From positions 1-42,406 of IMG/VR virus record IMGVR_UViG_3300024255_001824: a DNA stretch of 42,406 nt, one strand, 5' to 3'. The stretch comes from a virus. Positions 4,659 to 17,896 of this stretch are shown piece after piece. Positions within the stretch are counted from its first letter, which is position 1. Each line of letters opens with the position of its first letter. A model generated the notes under the pieces. It was given only the letters and a program-made list of their open reading frames with translations, had not been told where the DNA came from and did not search any database. A program made the position numbers and the translations under genes.

Positions 4659-6851
4659 CTAAAAGTTGTATGAAACTGTCATACCAAAAGTTCTCGGAGC
4701 GTTGAAGTTGCCGTAGGTTCCTAACACATCATCTTTCTGCGGGTCGCGTCGATAGATATATGCTTCGTTTGTCAGGTTACGACTCCATAGCTGAATATCA
4801 AGATACCCATTGCCTAATTGAATATCTCCTACTTTGATACTACTATTTGCGATAGTATGGGCATCGTTCTTTGTATCGTACTGACTGAATGCATATGCAG
4901 CATCAGTATATGTGACGTCAATGTGAGCACTTAAAGAAAACTTATCAAAGTATGTAGTATAGTCCAATCCTATGTTTACCACGTTCTCTGGTGTGAACAC
5001 AATAAATACTTCTTGCAACTCACCGTTAAAGGGGTTAACTGTGTCAGGCACCTCTGTGCTAGTATATGTATACGCACTTGTCAATGTCAACTCTTCTGTT
5101 AGAGCAATCTCTGCATCTAGCTCGATTCCATAAATCTCTGTAGTGCCGGGAGCATTGAGCGTTTCTAGTGTATTGCGCGTTGTCTGAGTGATAGGATCGA
5201 AGTTGACTTGTGAGAAGTCAATCTGTGACCCAGTACGGTCCATCATGAAAAGAGAACTATTCAATACTAAGCGTTCACTTCTCCATTTAGCACCCAGTTC
5301 ATAACTCTTTACAACTTCGGGGCCAAAACCTCGAAAGGTAAGAGAACGACTACTTGCACCGCCAGATCGGTAACCTGTAGCATACTTCGCATAAACATTC
5401 AAGTCTTCGGTTGCATCCCACGCTACAATCGCAACTGGGTCGAAACGAGACTCTTCAATGTCTAAGTCCCATTCTGCATCCAAGCCTTTCACCTTGTAGA
5501 GTTGACCAACCTTGGTATTTTGAGTATATCGACCGCCTAATGTAAAGTGTAAGAAGTTATCATAAGTGTAGGTAGTTTGTCCAAATACTCCCATACTTTC
5601 TGATTCAGCACGAGACCCTCTATCAATTCTCCAATTCTCATATGCCCAAGTATCGGGGTCGTTGATAGTATATCCGGTGAGGTCAGAGTTCCAACGATTA
5701 GTAGAGGGCGTTGCTGCCTCTTCCATTGCGTTCTCTTTGAAATAGTAGGCACCTGCAACATATTGCAATGTATCAGTATCTCCGATAATTTGAAACTCTT
5801 GACTGACTTGGTCCTGCTTCATTTGTGACAAGCTGTATCGACTAAATACTTGGTCAGGCTTAGGGGCGGGTACACGGTGAGCGCCTCCACTGTTGTCCCA
5901 CTGCTCTGAGTCAAGGTCACGATATCCAGTAATAGAACGTACATCGAACCACTCTCCAGACCATGTTAGTTGGAAGGTATGTCCACTCGTCTCGTTGCCA
6001 CTTGCTTGCTGAGGTACACCAATATCAGCAACTTTCATACGGTCGTTGCCTTCTACCACAATTAAGGAAGGTAAAGGCGTAAGTCCTTTATTATTAGGGT
6101 CAAAGTTGAGTAGCTGACTGTAAAAAGGAGTGTTTAAGTCAGTGCCCTGATCATACGAGTAATATGCAAGAAGATTATCTTTTTCCCACTCTGCACTGAA
6201 TCGTATTCCATCGCGATCAAAGAAGTTCCATCCTTCTTGCCCCTCTAGTGGGTTGTCAATAGTGGCATCCTGATACTGACTAATGTAGTCTATCTTTGTT
6301 GCTACTCCATAGAAAGAGGGAAGGTTTAAATGGGCTTCTCTACTAAAGGAATTATAGTTGCCTGCTCCTCCTTTCACTATACCTTCTAACTGACCTGTGG
6401 GGCGACGAGTGACGATGCTCAGGGCACCACCAGAAGTGTTTCTACCGAAAAGTGTCCCCTGTGGACCACGTAGCACCTCTATTCGCTCCACATCGAGAAG
6501 AGCGGCGTTTAATCCATGCTGGCGTCCTAGATAAACTCCGTCTACATATACTCCCACTCCACTTTCTCGGGCGGGTTGGTTTGCATCAAGAGGAACAATT
6601 CCTCGAATACCGATAGTAAGGGCGGTTTGTCTTGCTTCGAAAGTTGCAACGTTTAAGCCGGGCACGGAACCGTCTCCAAAGTCGAGAAGGCTTTGCACAT
6701 GGCGATCTTCAAGGTTTTGAGAAGATTGCACATTCATTGAAATTGGAGTCTCTTGAAGACTCGTCTCTCTTTTGGTTGCGGTTACAACAACTTCTTCCAG
6801 AGAAAAAGCCGGTGCTGCAAATAAAATAATGAGTAAAAGTAGGGGGTGCAT
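4659..6851 (-). CDS. TonB-dependent outer-membrane receptor (full length)
   Basis: A 730-residue protein with all parts of a working receptor. A signal peptide (MHPLLLLIILFAAPAFS) is followed by EEVVVTATKR, a typical start of the plug and possible TonB-box region. The plug (about residues 30-150) carries GVGVYVDGVYLGR and VERIEVLRGPQGTLFGRN. A long beta barrel ends in the outer-membrane Phe (TVSYNF). No frameshift or internal stop is visible, and the length is normal for the family. Such receptors import iron-siderophores, haem, cobalamin or glycans using TonB energy; the substrate cannot be read here. It has its own ribosome-binding site (AAAAGGAG), promoter and terminator, so it is a single-gene unit. 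I know of few phages carrying a complete receptor of this class. Confidence 0.93.
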   Translation of the reverse strand: MHPLLLLIILFAAPAFSLEEVVVTATKRETSLQETPISMNVQSSQNLEDRHVQSLLDFGDGSVPGLNVATFEARQTALTIGIRGIVPLDANQPARESGVGVYVDGVYLGRQHGLNAALLDVERIEVLRGPQGTLFGRNTSGGALSIVTRRPTGQLEGIVKGGAGNYNSFSREAHLNLPSFYGVATKIDYISQYQDATIDNPLEGQEGWNFFDRDGIRFSAEWEKDNLLAYYSYDQGTDLNTPFYSQLLNFDPNNKGLTPLPSLIVVEGNDRMKVADIGVPQQASGNETSGHTFQLTWSGEWFDVRSITGYRDLDSEQWDNSGGAHRVPAPKPDQVFSRYSLSQMKQDQVSQEFQIIGDTDTLQYVAGAYYFKENAMEEAATPSTNRWNSDLTGYTINDPDTWAYENWRIDRGSRAESESMGVFGQTTYTYDNFLHFTLGGRYTQNTKVGQLYKVKGLDAEWDLDIEESRFDPVAIVAWDATEDLNVYAKYATGYRSGGASSRSLTFRGFGPEVVKSYELGAKWRSERLVLNSSLFMMDRTGSQIDFSQVNFDPITQTTRNTLETLNAPGTTEIYGIELDAEIALTEELTLTSAYTYTSTEVPDTVNPFNGELQEVFIVFTPENVVNIGLDYTTYFDKFSLSAHIDVTYTDAAYAFSQYDTKNDAHTIANSSIKVGDIQLGNGYLDIQLWSRNLTNEAYIYRRDPQKDDVLGTYGNFNAPRTFGMTVSYNF

Positions 6852-10812: not shown

Positions 10813-11142
10813 ATGACTGACATGACTGCAAAGGCTTCGGCCAACTACACTCAAGAGATGGTTGAGTTCATCTCTGACCAATACACCGCTGTTCCGACTC
10901 GTGCTACCGTCGATCAGCTTGCTGAGAAGTTTAACAAGACTCCTCGTAGCATCATCGCAAAGCTTTCTGCTCTTGGCTTGTACATCAAAGCTGAGCGAGT
11001 AACTAAGCGAGGCGAGCCAGTTGTTCGCAAGGACGAGTTGGTTGCTCAGGTTCAGGCAAGTGTTGGTGTAGAGCTGCCTTCACTGGCTAAGATGACCAAA
11101 GTTGATCTTCAAAATCTTATCGACTTTTTCTCAGCAGCGTAA
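10813..11142 (+). CDS. Small HTH protein, family member A
   Basis: A 109-residue protein. Residues 10-60 carry YTQEMVEFISDQY, then TVDQLAEKFNKTPRSIIAKLSALGLYIKAE, an HTH of the kind shared by five genes in the window. The C-terminal half (RKDELVAQVQASVGVELPSLAKMTKVDLQNLIDFF) is a second helical region. Codon use is rich in GCT, CGT and AAG, suggesting strong expression. It has its own promoter and terminator, so it is a single-gene unit. Role: regulator or abundant DNA-binding protein (inferred). Confidence 0.75.
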   Translation: MTDMTAKASANYTQEMVEFISDQYTAVPTRATVDQLAEKFNKTPRSIIAKLSALGLYIKAERVTKRGEPVVRKDELVAQVQASVGVELPSLAKMTKVDLQNLIDFFSAA

Positions 11143-11992: not shown

Positions 11993-12183
11993 TGAATGGT
12001 GGACATGACATAAAAGAAGTAGACCAAGTAACAATTCAGTTTTGTGCTAATGGAACAGTGCTTGAATTTAGTGGAAGAATTGACGGCAACTATACAACTC
12101 GTAAAGAGCTGTACTTAGTAGGAGATGAAGCTGATTTGTTTGCTCGCATCGCTGATCTACAGGTGGCACATCGTGGAGCTTAA
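11989..12183 (+). CDS. Small hypothetical beta-rich protein (64 aa)
   Basis: Begins MMNGGHDIKEVDQVTIQFCA and ends ADLQVAHRGA. ATGA overlap with the upstream gene. Alternating polar and hydrophobic residues suggest a small beta sandwich. Function unknown. Confidence 0.55.
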   Translation: MMNGGHDIKEVDQVTIQFCANGTVLEFSGRIDGNYTTRKELYLVGDEADLFARIADLQVAHRGA

Positions 12184-12364
12184 AAGCGGTGCAGAGAATA
12201 TAGCGTGGCGTCTCCGTACCTTTTGTGTGTACGAAGCTGACGTAGAAAAGTTCTTGCCTAAACTGCATATGAACAATGATGGGCTAGTCCTGGAGTACAA
12301 TGAGAAGGGCACTGGGTATAAAAGATTTGAAAAAATTTCAGGGGTGAAGAAAAAAAGTTCTTGA
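12173..12364 (+). CDS. Small hypothetical protein, start uncertain
   Basis: From the proposed GTG the product reads VELKSGAENIAWRLRTF and ends KRFEKISGVKKKSS (63 residues). The frame is open back to an ATG at 12125, but that start overlaps the upstream gene more. AGGTGG lies 7 nt before the GTG. Its stop codon TGA is part of the -35 box of the ncRNA promoter. Confidence 0.45.
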   Translation: MELKSGAENIAWRLRTFCVYEADVEKFLPKLHMNNDGLVLEYNEKGTGYKRFEKISGVKKKSS

Positions 12365-12390
12365 CTTTCAGTTCAAAAACCATGTATAAT
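12361..12390 (+). promoter_or_regulatory. Promoter of the large noncoding RNA
   Basis: TTGACT (12361-12366), 18-nt spacer, TATAAT (12385-12390), then AT. Same style as the phage protein-gene promoters. Expected transcript start near 12397. Confidence 0.8.
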
Positions 12391-12396
12391 ATCTAT

Positions 12397-12878
12397 TCAA
12401 ATGGGGGAAGCCAAGGACGCCATGAGTGTTGCTACCCACTCGCGATGAGGCAGTAAAGATCCCGGTAAAAGTTCCATGCCTATCCGGAGCCCCAACCTTA
12501 TTTTTGTAAGCCGTCATGCTTACAACCAAACAATCGTTGACCTGCCTCTCCGACGGGAAAAGAGGGCATCGTTTGTAGTGCTAATGTGGGATGGCAAAGC
12601 ACTTTAAAAAGTACCATCTTAGCTTTGTGCTACTGACAGCACTTTCCTTAGCCGAGGTTCTATATCGGCTCCCTCTACGCCGAAGGGTACAGTCGGTGTA
12701 CGTTCAGAAGACGTATAGCTTCTGCCCAGTTACCAGTTAGTGCGATTTGTATTCTGGGTTACTAAAAACAAAAACGCGGTGGGGTTGTATTCGCGGTACG
12801 ACTTCAGGTACGTGAGGAAGGTGGTGCGTATCATCTAAACTGTAGAATCCCTGCATAGAAATATGTGGGGATTTTTTT
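12397..12878 (+). ncRNA. Large structured noncoding RNA candidate (about 480 nt)
   Basis: A transcription unit with its own promoter (12361-12390) and strong terminator (12846-12878) but no credible reading frame. The sequence is far richer in GC and in inverted repeats than the surrounding DNA. Stems visible by eye include GAGTG/CACTC (12424-12441), TGTAAGC/GCTTACA (12505-12524), TGCCTCT/AGAGGGCA (12543-12568), AGTGCT/AGCACT (12577-12603), GTGCT/AGCAC (12627-12642), AGCCGA/TCGGCT (12650-12670) and ACGCCGA/TCGGTGT (12677-12699). An alternative long pairing GATGG..ACTTT with AAAGT..CCATC (12590-12617) suggests switching. It is not a tRNA, and I see no RNase P, tmRNA or group I intron landmarks. 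Size and phage setting recall GOLLD and ROOL large ornate RNAs, but I cannot assign it to either. Confidence 0.8.
12846..12878 (+). terminator. Terminator of the noncoding RNA
   Basis: Stem AATCCC/GGGATT (12846-12851 and 12868-12873) with an inner CATA/TATG helix, followed by a run of T to 12878. Confidence 0.8.
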
Positions 12879-12898
12879 ATGCCTTCAGAAAATTTTTC

Positions 12899-12927
12899 TT
12901 GACATTTTTTCTTAGGTGCGATATAAT
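12899..12927 (+). promoter_or_regulatory. Sigma70-type promoter
   Basis: TTGACA (12899-12904), 17-nt spacer, TATAAT (12922-12927). Both hexamers are perfect. It drives the two genes from 12950. Confidence 0.85.
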
Positions 12928-12949: not shown

Positions 12950-13291
12950 ATGACTAATGTTTTACAATTTCCAGACAAATCGCCAAAATCGCAGCGGGTG
13001 CGCAACGAACTTTCAGTACTGGGAAATAACCTGGAAATTTGCTACGAAGCCATAGAAGAAGCAGTACAGGCTTTGAGTGAAATGGAAGAACAAATTAAGT
13101 TGTTGGAAAACAACTACAATATCAAACTGATGGAGCTGGTGGAAGAGGTAGGTTTTGCGGAAGTGACGGCAGAAGAGTTTCAATACGCAACGAATATCGG
13201 GGTCGGGGCGGGGTCTCGGCAGTTTACATTAACTTTGGAAGACGGCAAGATATTTACATTTACTATAGACGAAGGAGAACCGAAAGAGTGA
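12950..13291 (+). CDS. Coiled-coil protein of unknown function (113 aa)
   Basis: Begins MTNVLQFPDKSPKSQRVRNE. A central coiled coil (ICYEAIEEAVQALSEMEEQIKLLENNY) is followed by a beta-type C-terminal part (RQFTLTLEDGKIFTFTIDEGE). AAAGGAGAG lies 4 nt before the ATG, an excellent site. It overlaps the HTH gene by 4 nt, so the two proteins are probably made together and may interact. Confidence 0.7.
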   Translation: MTNVLQFPDKSPKSQRVRNELSVLGNNLEICYEAIEEAVQALSEMEEQIKLLENNYNIKLMELVEEVGFAEVTAEEFQYATNIGVGAGSRQFTLTLEDGKIFTFTIDEGEPKE

Positions 13292-13605
13292 GCAACTATA
13301 CTCAAGAACAAACCGATTATATGGTTGAAATCTACAGTAAAAATCCGAATAGAGAAACTGTAGAAGTAATAGCAGCAAAAATGGATAAAAGTGTTAAAAG
13401 TATTATAGGAAAGCTCTCACGCGAAGGGGTTTACCGAAGAGAGAAGTATGTAAGTAAAACTGGAGAAAGTCCAATCACGAAAGCAGAACTTATTATAGCA
13501 CTGGCAAATTTACTACGGATAGAAGACTATACGCTATCTGGACTAGAAAAGGCCCCGAAGCCAGTCTTGAAAAAATTAAAAGAAATTGTGGAAGAACTTG
13601 TATAA
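13288..13605 (+). CDS. Small HTH protein, family member B
   Basis: A 105-residue protein starting with GTG overlapping the upstream stop. YTQEQTDYMVEIYSKN, then VEVIAAKMDKSVKSIIGKLSREGVYRREKY matches member A (10813) almost position by position. SKTGESPITKAELI likewise parallels TKRGEPVVRKDELV. Its C-terminal helices are longer. Unlike member A it uses AT-rich codons. Probably a DNA-binding regulator. Confidence 0.75.
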   Translation: MSNYTQEQTDYMVEIYSKNPNRETVEVIAAKMDKSVKSIIGKLSREGVYRREKYVSKTGESPITKAELIIALANLLRIEDYTLSGLEKAPKPVLKKLKEIVEELV

Positions 13606-14022
13606 TTAAGGTTTTGTGTGATTAAGAGGTTTTTTGCGTTTGGGGGAAATTGTGTTTTGTTAAGACGCAATTGTAGTAAATCAGTTTTAATGTTTAGACC
13701 CGCTTTAGTTATATTTAATTATCGGGGTCATTAGCGATTAGGTCAGAATGGAATCATGATTGAATTAGATTACGCGGGGATTTTAATAGTCAATATGCAA
13801 CAACGAGCTAATCTTGTGGTTTTACCACTGGATGCTCCCTTAATTCCGCATCCGGGTAATAGCACAAATAACTCTATGCACAATGACTATTATTTGGTTA
13901 GATAGAATAGTGACTGACCTTATTGTCTATCAATTTATGATATATTTTACCACACTTTTTGCAAAAACACAACAACTATTTTTCCCAGGTATCGCTTTTA
14001 AGGACTGGGATGGAGATCTAAT
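13606..14022. other. Gene-free stretch with hairpins, possible second ncRNA or leader
   Basis: About 415 bp with no reading frame worth calling. Hairpins seen: AATTGTGT/ACGCAATT (one G-T pair, around 13651-13674), GTGGT/ACCAC, and GGATGC/GCATCC (around 13840-13855). An imperfect GACCC/GGGTC pairing lies around 13697-13729. I see no strong promoter at its left end and no T-run terminator, so it may be a long leader of the gene at 14023, a replication-related element, or an RNA processed from the upstream transcript. Confidence 0.5.
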
Positions 14023-15277: not shown

Positions 15278-15430
15278 TTGGGTATATCAGTTGGTGAATT
15301 TGCCATTTTTATGTTCTGCATGATTGGATGCGGCGTACAATGTTGGCACCTAGGAAAAAGTACGGGTGTGGAAGCAACTGTACAGTACATGATTGATACA
15401 GGGGTTCTCGAAGTAGAAGAAGATTCGTAG
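15278..15430 (+). CDS. Small membrane protein with TTG start (50 aa)
   Basis: AAAGGAGAG lies 4 nt before a TTG start. The product reads GISVGEFAIFMFCMIGCGVQ after the initiator and ends TGVLEVEEDS. A membrane span is followed by GKSTGVEATVQYMIDTG and an acidic end. I have seen this layout (span, G-x-x-x-G, VxYLIexGvLEvdE) in many marine phages; function unknown. Confidence 0.65.
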   Translation: MGISVGEFAIFMFCMIGCGVQCWHLGKSTGVEATVQYMIDTGVLEVEEDS

Positions 15431-15447
15431 AAGTAACAAACTGACGG

Positions 15448-15481
15448 TTGGACTCGGGTGCAACTCCCGACAGCTCCACCA
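15448..15481 (+). other. tmRNA-type 3' end (T arm, acceptor strand, CCA) without a 5' half
   Basis: The 34 bases match the 3' end of enterobacterial tmRNA (ssrA) except for four positions. Two of the four are a swapped base pair in the T stem (G-C becomes T-A), which keeps the stem TCGGG/CCCGA. The end CAGCTCCACCA is intact. No partner GGAGCTG that would close an acceptor stem, and no tag reading frame, was found upstream. It lies between two small genes, just before the ribosome-binding site at 15484. It could be an attachment site for insertion into a host ssrA gene, half of a split tmRNA, or a tRNA-like decoration of the mRNA. Confidence 0.7.
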
Positions 15482-15495
15482 TAAGGAGTTTTATA

Positions 15496-15666
15496 ATGCG
15501 TATACCAATGAAAGGTGGTGATGAGTTTGACGGACTTGATCGCAGAAGCAAGCGTTTTCTTAGATGGAGATCTGGAGAGCGAAAAGCACTCAAACGTAAG
15601 TACAATAAACGACGCAGAAAGACTTTTTATGACGGGGCTGATACAGACTCGACAGGCGTACAGTAG
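15496..15666 (+). CDS. Small basic protein (56 aa)
   Basis: Begins MRIPMKGGDEFDGLDRRSKR and includes RWRSGERKALKRKYNKRRRK. AAGGAG lies 8 nt before the ATG. Longer frames would begin inside the tmRNA-like element and are rejected. It overlaps the next gene for 150 nt in another frame. I recall GERKAIKRxYNKR-type proteins in marine phages, without function. Confidence 0.6.
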   Translation: MRIPMKGGDEFDGLDRRSKRFLRWRSGERKALKRKYNKRRRKTFYDGADTDSTGVQ

Positions 15667-15751
15667 ACTTATGGAGAATCCGTGCGGAAGCTACGTTAAC
15701 GCAACAAACTTAATAAATGCCAATGATGACGTTTATACACTTGCAGCCTAA
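15515..15751 (+). CDS. Hypothetical protein overlapping the basic gene (78 aa)
   Basis: Begins MVMSLTDLIAEASVFLDGDL (or MSLTD two codons on) and ends NDDVYTLAA. Most of its length overlaps the gene at 15496 in another frame. The composition looks protein-like and the last 85 nt lie beyond the overlap, so both frames may be used. Confidence 0.5.
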   Translation: MVMSLTDLIAEASVFLDGDLESEKHSNVSTINDAERLFMTGLIQTRQAYSRLMENPCGSYVNATNLINANDDVYTLAA

Positions 15752-15814
15752 TTAGGTGTGCGGGGTCCGAGGAGCCTGGCAACAGAAATCCTCATGTTAA
15801 CCAAAGGAGGTTAT

Positions 15815-16301: not shown

Positions 16302-16727
16302 ATGACAAAGCAAAATTTAATAAATATGAACGACGTTCACAAGTTCTTTTTGGGACTTGATCTTCACCCTGATTTCTTTTCTAATTCACCTATGACTGGC
16401 TATCCTCGCTACAATGTTGTGCGAGTAGGTAGTAGTGACTATCGTGTAGAGGTCGCAGTCCCGGGCTGGGATAAAGAAGATATAGAAATTACTTTGCATA
16501 AAAATGAGTTGAAAATTGAAGGAACTCAGAAGCAAGTAGCCGAGCAGGACGAGACCTATCTTTACAAAGGACTAAGCGGTAAAACTTTTTCACGGGTATT
16601 CAAGGTTGGAAACAACATTGAGCTGGATACAGCGTATATGAAGAATGGACTTCTTTGTATCGATCTTGTAGAAAATGTACCTGAAGAAGACAAGCCTAAA
16701 AGGATAGAAATCGTAAATGCAGTATGA
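16302..16727 (+). CDS. Small heat-shock protein (Hsp20/IbpA type)
   Basis: A 141-residue protein with an alpha-crystallin domain. YPRYNVVRVGSSDYRVEVAVPGW is followed by DIEITLHKNELKIEG, ETYLYKGLSGKTFSRVFKVG, MKNGLLCIDLVENVPEEDKP and IEI. These are the conserved blocks of bacterial IbpA and of the Hsp20 proteins of cyanophages. It holds unfolding proteins and may aid folding of virion proteins or of the exported proteins encoded nearby. The next tiny gene starts inside its 3' end. Confidence 0.9.
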   Translation: MTKQNLINMNDVHKFFLGLDLHPDFFSNSPMTGYPRYNVVRVGSSDYRVEVAVPGWDKEDIEITLHKNELKIEGTQKQVAEQDETYLYKGLSGKTFSRVFKVGNNIELDTAYMKNGLLCIDLVENVPEEDKPKRIEIVNAV

Positions 16728-17425: not shown

Positions 17426-17516
17426 TGGTTGTGAGACTGTAAAAATAGAAAGAGTAAATTGTAACCTTTCTGAGAACTGGCCTCAATGTAATGTAATTGC
17501 CTCAAAGGAGGACTAA
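17373..17516 (+). CDS. Small lipoprotein (outer-spanin-like candidate)
   Basis: From a GTG start the 47-residue product begins (M)TYFTKRLNVAVFVLLISGCE, with lipobox ISGC and cleavage before Cys. The mature part has two more cysteines (VNCNLSENWPQCN). It overlaps the previous gene by 53 nt in another frame, as Rz/Rz1 pairs do, and precedes the lysozyme by one gene. No clear inner spanin is visible, so the role is tentative. Confidence 0.55.
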   Translation: MTYFTKRLNVAVFVLLISGCETVKIERVNCNLSENWPQCNVIASKED

Positions 17517-17896
17517 TGTATTCAGACAAGGTACTAGATCATTATGAAAATCCCAGGAATGTCGGAAAACTTGACAAAAATGATGAGGCTGTCGGAACAG
17601 GCCTCACAGGTGCTCCAGCGTGTGGAGACGTCATGCAACTTCAAATCCGAGTATCGACCGACGGAATTATTGAAGATGCTAAATTCAAAACTTACGGATG
17701 CGGCAGTGCTATTGCTTCTTCATCACTACTCACAGAATGGGTTAGAGGAAAGTCCCTTAACGAAGCGGGAAAGATCAGCAATGTCCAAATTGCTAAAGAG
17801 CTATCACTCCCGCCTGTAAAGATACACTGTAGCGTGTTGGCCGAAGACGCGATCAAAGCCGCAATCACGGATTATAGGAGCAAGCATGAATCGTGA
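17516..17896 (+). CDS. iscU: IscU-type iron-sulfur cluster scaffold
   Basis: A 126-residue protein, the normal length of IscU. The three cluster ligands are in place: Cys36 (APACGDV, with the nearby Asp38), Cys62 (TYGCGSAIASSS) and Cys105 (KIHCSVLAEDAI). LPPVK at 98-102 is the HscA chaperone recognition motif, so it should still dock with the host Isc system. IscU builds 2Fe-2S and 4Fe-4S clusters from IscS sulfur and iron. No iscS or hscA is in the window. ATG overlaps the lipoprotein stop by one base and its 3' end overlaps the lysozyme start, so it is embedded in the lysis operon. Confidence 0.92.
   Translation: MYSDKVLDHYENPRNVGKLDKNDEAVGTGLTGAPACGDVMQLQIRVSTDGIIEDAKFKTYGCGSAIASSSLLTEWVRGKSLNEAGKISNVQIAKELSLPPVKIHCSVLAEDAIKAAITDYRSKHES

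Follow-up and report, generated by a model that had tools for sequence, protein, structure and literature searches.

The window analysed here is the whole of a virus record of 42,406 bases. Its genes include a D5-like regulator, a two-gene NAD-dependent DNA ligase, SbcCD, RNR and a DNA polymerase with 43% identity to the enzyme of T5 and its relatives, and on this predicted gene content we group the source virus with the T5-like phages, in an uncultivated marine lineage. The lineage appears to be remote from isolates and to have no representative in the GenBank phage set (50,697 records), since neither the RNA described below, nor several of its homologues, found a real BLAST match there and the neighbouring 105-aa DNA-binding protein had no tblastn match among these phages. 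Elsewhere in the window, a 730-aa protein encoded on the minus strand (4659-6851) is TonB-dependent receptor-like by sequence, its C-terminal half matching PHROG 5687, of unknown function. An Hsp20 chaperone gene (16302-16727, PHROG match) and an iron-sulphur scaffold gene, IscU-like by sequence (17516-17896), both recur in relatives. A permuted tmRNA gene is also present; it recurs in contigs L005, L059, L083, L092 and L093, and in L193 it lies beside a tRNA.

Between two paralogous genes for small D5-like DNA-binding proteins lies a putative transcription unit for a structured non-coding RNA of about 480 nt (Table 1), and homologous RNAs occupy the same position wherever both flanks are visible. 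An initial annotation, made from the letters alone, had described this stretch as running from a consensus promoter to a strong terminator without a usable reading frame, and each of these points was borne out. The promoter (TTGACT, an 18-nt spacer and TATAAT) is kept in all close homologues, and the 5′ end of the RNA is inferred from its position. The terminator, which escaped a simple terminator scan since its stem extends into the T tract, is near-identical in most homologues and shows four double-changed pairs among 13 sequences. The contrast with AT-rich flanks that had also been claimed is only mild, the RNA having a G+C content of 47.5% against 40-43% in adjacent bins.

Table 1. Predicted features of the RNA locus and related elements (window coordinates unless a contig is named).
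Feature	Position	Strand	Basis or remark
Flanking gene upstream (79 aa with a basic C terminus)	12125-12364	+	3′ end overlaps the RNA promoter
Promoter, -35 TTGACT, -10 TATAAT	12361-12390	+	11/12 consensus positions
Structured non-coding RNA, promoter to terminator	12397-12878	+	homologues and covariation
Domain I, about 90 nt	12404-12493	+	25-sequence covariation count
P1 (domain I)	12404-12407/12490-12493	+	
P2 (domain I)	12418-12420/12442-12444	+	
P3 (domain I)	12424-12428/12437-12441	+	
P4 (domain I)	12462-12465/12484-12487	+	
Variable arm	12504-12575	+	hairpin P5 12504-12511/12518-12525; stem P6 12527-12531/12571-12575
Pseudoknot 1	12577-12620	+	stem 12577-12582/12598-12603; loop strand 12588-12594 with 12614-12620
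Three hairpins	12627-12699	+	P8 12627-12630/12639-12642; P9 12651-12655/12665-12669; 12677-12683/12693-12699
Pseudoknot 2	12726-12772	+	stem CCAG 12726-12729/CTGG 12754-12757; loop TTTG 12746-12749 with CAAA 12769-12772
Hairpin P10	12780-12806	+	apical loop TTCGCGG (12790-12796)
Hairpin P11	12807-12832	+	purine-rich loop (GAGGAAGG-like)
Junction where the window lacks the ~106-nt 3′ module of L005	12837-12842	+	in L005 the module is bounded on each side by the repeat AACT(A/G)T
Intrinsic terminator, 14-bp stem and T run	12844-12878	+	12844-12857 pairs with 12862-12875
Downstream gene, 113 aa, begins ..ILxFP..	12950-13291	+	own promoter at 12899-12927, TTGACA-17-TATAAT, 12/12 consensus
Small D5-like DNA-binding protein gene	13288-13605	+	paralogue at 10813-11142
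Permuted (two-piece type) tmRNA gene, tag ANDDVYTLAA	15389-15842		ARAGORN and Rfam (tmRNA models at 15375-15796)
RNA of about 1,000 nt, sister phages	L130:251-1270		also L131-L133, L158, L143, L182, L144, L176; further carriers L156, L127, L192, L170, L160

Directly after the 105-aa gene lies a second conserved ORF-free stretch (13640-13995), with homologues in at least ten relatives. Its stems appear compensatory by eye, but an automated scan found in it no stem with two double-changed pairs. This stretch could be an origin or encode an RNA on the minus strand, its strand and nature being unknown.

A single sequence does not settle what the transcript is, since its folding energy is unexceptional (z = -1.62, with 8 of 100 shuffles folding equally well), and the case is weak without homologues. 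This ordinary fold energy would suit a leaderless or small-ORF mRNA, or a DNA-level element such as an origin or a recombination site, in which folding is incidental, and some homologues do have an ATG after the predicted start. However, that ATG is absent from L026, L041 and L089, homologue indels that are not multiples of three break the frames, the longest open stretches reach only 52 codons on the plus strand and 61 on the minus strand, and no translated conserved peptide is visible in the sequences. Compensatory changes, G-U intermediates included, are moreover found through all domains, as detailed below, and we give an mRNA or a DNA element almost no credence. Positions 12361-12878 are, judged from sequence, a free-standing transcription unit without a conserved protein product.

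Three search routes, using the flanking proteins, degenerate DNA patterns and a protein profile of the downstream gene, converged on the same homologous loci, and covariance models were built for the 5′ domain (R1) and the 3′ domain (R2). With nhmmer and both models, the full architecture was found in about 20 contigs, the window included, and about 15 further contigs, found with R1 alone, have only the 5′ domain in common and carry a different RNA body; E-values of the homologues went down to 1e-34. The window, which is among the building sequences of R1, scores 117.6 bits against it, and the two models score in the window only at 12395-12499 and 12721-12836. The window RNA thus combines an R1 hit with a position between two D5-like genes. 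Three pattern hits in bacterial genomes were set aside as chance, being absent or reaching only about 15 bits in the model searches. Contig L115 fits R1 (E = 0.0013) but is protein-coding there and was rejected, while L193 (E = 0.002), where the hit abuts the permuted tmRNA and the tRNA, is a doubtful homologue; it was retained as one of the 25 sequences in the count for domain I, which does not depend on it.

Domain I, the most conserved part of the RNA, has the conserved core GATRAGRCAGTAAAGAT. When 25 sequences were aligned with MAFFT, blind to structure, 98.2% of the cells in P1, P2 and P4 were paired, and we counted 52 double-changed cells against 14.5 in shuffled data, a value that none of 500 shuffles reached. 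Pairing collapsed when the strands were slid against each other, a control that, unlike the shuffle counts, preserves the relatedness of the sequences. The P4 helix alone occurs as CCGG/CCGG, CCAG/CTGG, GCAG/CTGC, GCGG/CCGC, GTGG/CCAC, TCAG/CTGA, TCGG/CCGA and GCAC/GTGC. An unsupervised search of a 13-sequence alignment, to which no structure was given, returned 14 stems in which two or more pairs were double-changed, compared with 0 to 3 in 15 column-permuted controls. P1, P3, P9 and the terminator were found again in this way, as were parts of P10, and the search also pointed to pseudoknot 2.

The rest of the RNA follows the same pattern. In the variable arm, both strands of a stem are replaced in concert (CAAAC/GTTTG, GTCCCGC/GCGGGAC and ATCTACAG/CTGTAGAT); since these helices were picked by hand, the controls of that test are biased and our argument rests on the other covariation counts. 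The pseudoknot 1 helix is fully paired (100%) in 13 sequences, with three pairs changed on both sides, and the second strand of pseudoknot 2 varies as TTTG/CAAA, TTCG/CGAA and ATTC/AGAA. All four pairs of P10 show double changes, 99% of the cells in the six pairs of P11 are paired, and together the two hairpins have 26 double-changed cells against 7.4 when shuffled. By eye, the purine loop of P11 could plausibly pair with pyrimidines near 12642-12648, but the unsupervised scan did not return this pairing and it was not retained. Compensatory changes exceed shuffles in three separately aligned regions, namely the 5′ domain, pseudoknot 1 and the 3′ domain. The initial annotation had seen at least seven hairpins and a competing long pairing; the comparison supports at least ten helices, and the extra pairing does exist, but two H-type pseudoknots describe it better. 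Its proposal that homologues be examined for covarying pairs was likewise followed, and these show numerous compensatory changes without any reading frame being conserved. The comparison demonstrates that a fold predicted at the RNA level, with two pseudoknots, is under selection.

Searches of Rfam 15, whose models we take to include GOLLD, ROOL and OLE, gave no significant match to the RNA, whether at the gathering threshold or under relaxed cut-offs (E up to 5), and none to its homologues; at gathering thresholds the window has matches to tmRNA models alone. Hits below threshold at 12375-12920 (RF_site9, U5, snoR12, Thr_leader, NsiR1 and mir-221) are at chance level. In the open PMC literature we likewise found no T5-like phage described as carrying an RNA of this sort, subscription papers and preprints being outside this search. 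That the RNA is new to Rfam leaves hardly any room for doubt, and the earlier suggestion of a large structured non-coding RNA, possibly of a new family, is supported by both the covariation of the homologues and the Rfam result.

GOLLD is a phage and prophage RNA of more than 800 nt that forms a 14-mer nanocage and is often found near tRNA islands, and ROOL is a prophage and phage RNA that forms an octameric nanocage, its function unknown. The window RNA is like both in being large, ornate, non-coding and phage-encoded, and like GOLLD also in its pseudoknots and, on modest evidence, in a self-complementary loop. GOLLD has been described as a large ornate phage RNA with marine examples, half conserved and half variable, with pseudoknots and self-complementary loops (PMC12286853). 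Unlike GOLLD, the window RNA is shorter, has its conserved part in the 5′ domain, matches no GOLLD covariance model (the conserved 3′ region included) and has no tRNA beside it, ARAGORN finding only the permuted tmRNA 2.5 kb downstream; no tRNA genes were found in the close-homologue loci scanned either. From ROOL it differs by the absence of an Rfam match and of adjoining tRNA genes and by its modular body of about 140 to about 690 nt. The nearest precedent for the P10 loop is OLE, which forms a homodimer via a loop with a palindrome that changes in concert (PMC12286853), but OLE is bacterial, has membrane-protein partners and is unrelated in sequence, and its Rfam model does not match the window RNA. 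The permuted tmRNA of the same phage is likewise a structured RNA gene of this region, although it gets no score from R1 and R2, and the window RNA in turn is not matched by the tmRNA models of Rfam. Comparison with GOLLD and ROOL, already made in the initial annotation, is thus apt as to kind but not as to membership. Since no Rfam family gave a covariance match, we do not file the RNA under GOLLD, ROOL or OLE, and consider it, on comparative grounds, a new RNA family of the GOLLD and ROOL kind and a member of neither.

The body of the RNA varies considerably around the locus, from about 140 nt where only the 5′ domain is present to about 690 nt in L037. Contig L005 is 98% identical to the window and has in addition a 3′ module of about 106 nt, which is a covarying hairpin. 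A peptide encoded in this optional module (L005 and L050 have a short frame there and an SD-like AGGAGG) was considered and rejected, as it is not kept in L094, L041 and L083. A different body follows the 5′ domain in L107, L108, L117, L118, L122 and L123, and in L110, L114 and L181 domain I is found downstream of a coding frame with little else before the terminator, an arrangement in which a role at the 3′ end of a transcript is possible. The extent of variation in the content of this slot can be seen in L191, where the same promoter precedes a promoter-to-terminator RNA of about 200 nt (L191:3318-3560) without domain I. In sister phages, the corresponding slot holds an unrelated, ORF-poor promoter-to-terminator RNA of about 1,000 nt, with shorter or diverged forms in L135, L142 and L064. 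Six of its stems have at least three double-changed pairs, compared with none in five controls, and it matched nothing in Rfam, nor did BLAST find a match among GenBank phages, where L064 used as query found hits only through its promoter. With this strong covariation and no known match, it is likely to be another new family of large RNAs. Because the RNA of about 1 kb lacks domain I, the function of the locus need not depend on that domain. The comparison of loci shows that body modules have been exchanged around a conserved 5′ domain while the genomic slot has remained constant.

Given that the same small genes invariably follow the RNA, and that its short forms resemble a domain plus a terminator, it could be a cis-acting element, such as a riboswitch, an attenuator or a leader, controlling those genes. 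However, a promoter sits directly at the RNA start, pseudoknotted bodies of 480-690 nt far exceed what such control needs, and the strong terminator is followed by a perfect promoter before the next gene. Because this terminator and new promoter separate the RNA from the next gene, we infer an action in trans and regard cis regulation as very improbable. That the locus is a real gene for a structured, trans-acting RNA we hold with high confidence.

The tip of P10 offers a hint as to what this RNA may do. Its loop is self-complementary in every homologue although the sequence differs, with six unrelated palindromes (CTGCAG, TCGCGG, ACGCGA with core CGCG, CTCATGAG, CCATGG and GTTGCAAC). Fisher's test gave p = 1.6e-4 for eight loop strings and about 1e-3 for the six independent ones, uncorrected for the eight loop classes examined; the p values of the control loops ranged from 0.12 to 1. 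In the L107-type body, a palindromic loop alone was not significant (p = 0.31). In OLE and GOLLD, palindromic loops that change in concert are the signature of symmetric intermolecular kissing loops (PMC12286853), and the P10 tip suggests, on modest evidence, that the RNA may dimerise in this way, the stoichiometry being untested. Since the palindrome test is modest and the outer palindrome bases could instead lengthen the hairpin itself (in L089 and L067 the limits of the apex vary with how the stem is drawn), we regard self-association as possible and somewhat short of probable. The formation of multimers, raised in the initial annotation from the GOLLD and ROOL precedents, is therefore only hinted at by these loops.

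An RNA-only nanocage or compartment, that is, a symmetric multimer of high order as in GOLLD and ROOL, would agree with the size, phage origin, pseudoknots and self-complementary loop of the RNA, as well as with the larger covarying RNAs that fill the same slot in sister phages. Yet the window RNA has no sequence or covariance relation to either cage-forming family, only a single candidate for self-interaction was found where cages need several, and natural forms at the locus go down to about 140-200 nt (L110, L191), so that a cage seems improbable to us.

Our best overall explanation, to which we would give a little under an even chance, is a self-contained gene encoding a large RNA of several domains, whose mechanism as a scaffold is inferred. 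The host RNA polymerase would transcribe the RNA from its strong sigma-70 promoter, probably early, although there are no transcript data. Acting in trans, the RNA would serve as a scaffold that associates with itself through kissing loops at the palindromic tip of P10, the conserved domain I would hold or titrate some macromolecule, of the host or of the phage (neither partner nor phenotype is known), and the swappable body could tune size or target. The role as scaffold or decoy is itself inferred and remains tentative. A monomeric decoy or inhibitor directed at the ribosome or a single host protein, in counter-defence or host take-over, would dispense with self-association, and module exchange would then reflect an arms race. 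The host-type promoter amid small unknown genes and the rapid exchange of variable arms around a conserved core favour such a decoy, and the raiA motif provides a precedent for large RNAs that can be monomers (PMC12286853). Nevertheless, it leaves the palindromic P10 tip in six unrelated versions unexplained, and the only concrete target tested by similarity gave nothing above chance: GATAAGACAGTAAAGATCCCGG resembles the conserved 23S sequence AAGACGGAAAGACCCCGTG, but the best local 23S and 16S scores did not exceed those of shuffles. We consider the monomer unlikely, though it cannot be dismissed.

Few large structured phage RNAs without known function have been described (GOLLD and ROOL), and how general RNA assemblies are remains an open question. 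The covariation of the new family is good enough to guide structure work, and the palindromic tip of the proposed scaffold opens one mechanism to direct testing with in vitro transcripts alone. It is conceivable, though we think it rather unlikely, that the whole lineage maintains an RNA slot whose interchangeable RNAs (140 to about 1,100 nt) are all self-assembling scaffolds, in which assembly or bulk would be selected and not sequence. A constant slot filled by interchangeable and partly unrelated RNAs indicates that what is selected in these phages is a large folded RNA at this place, and not one particular sequence.
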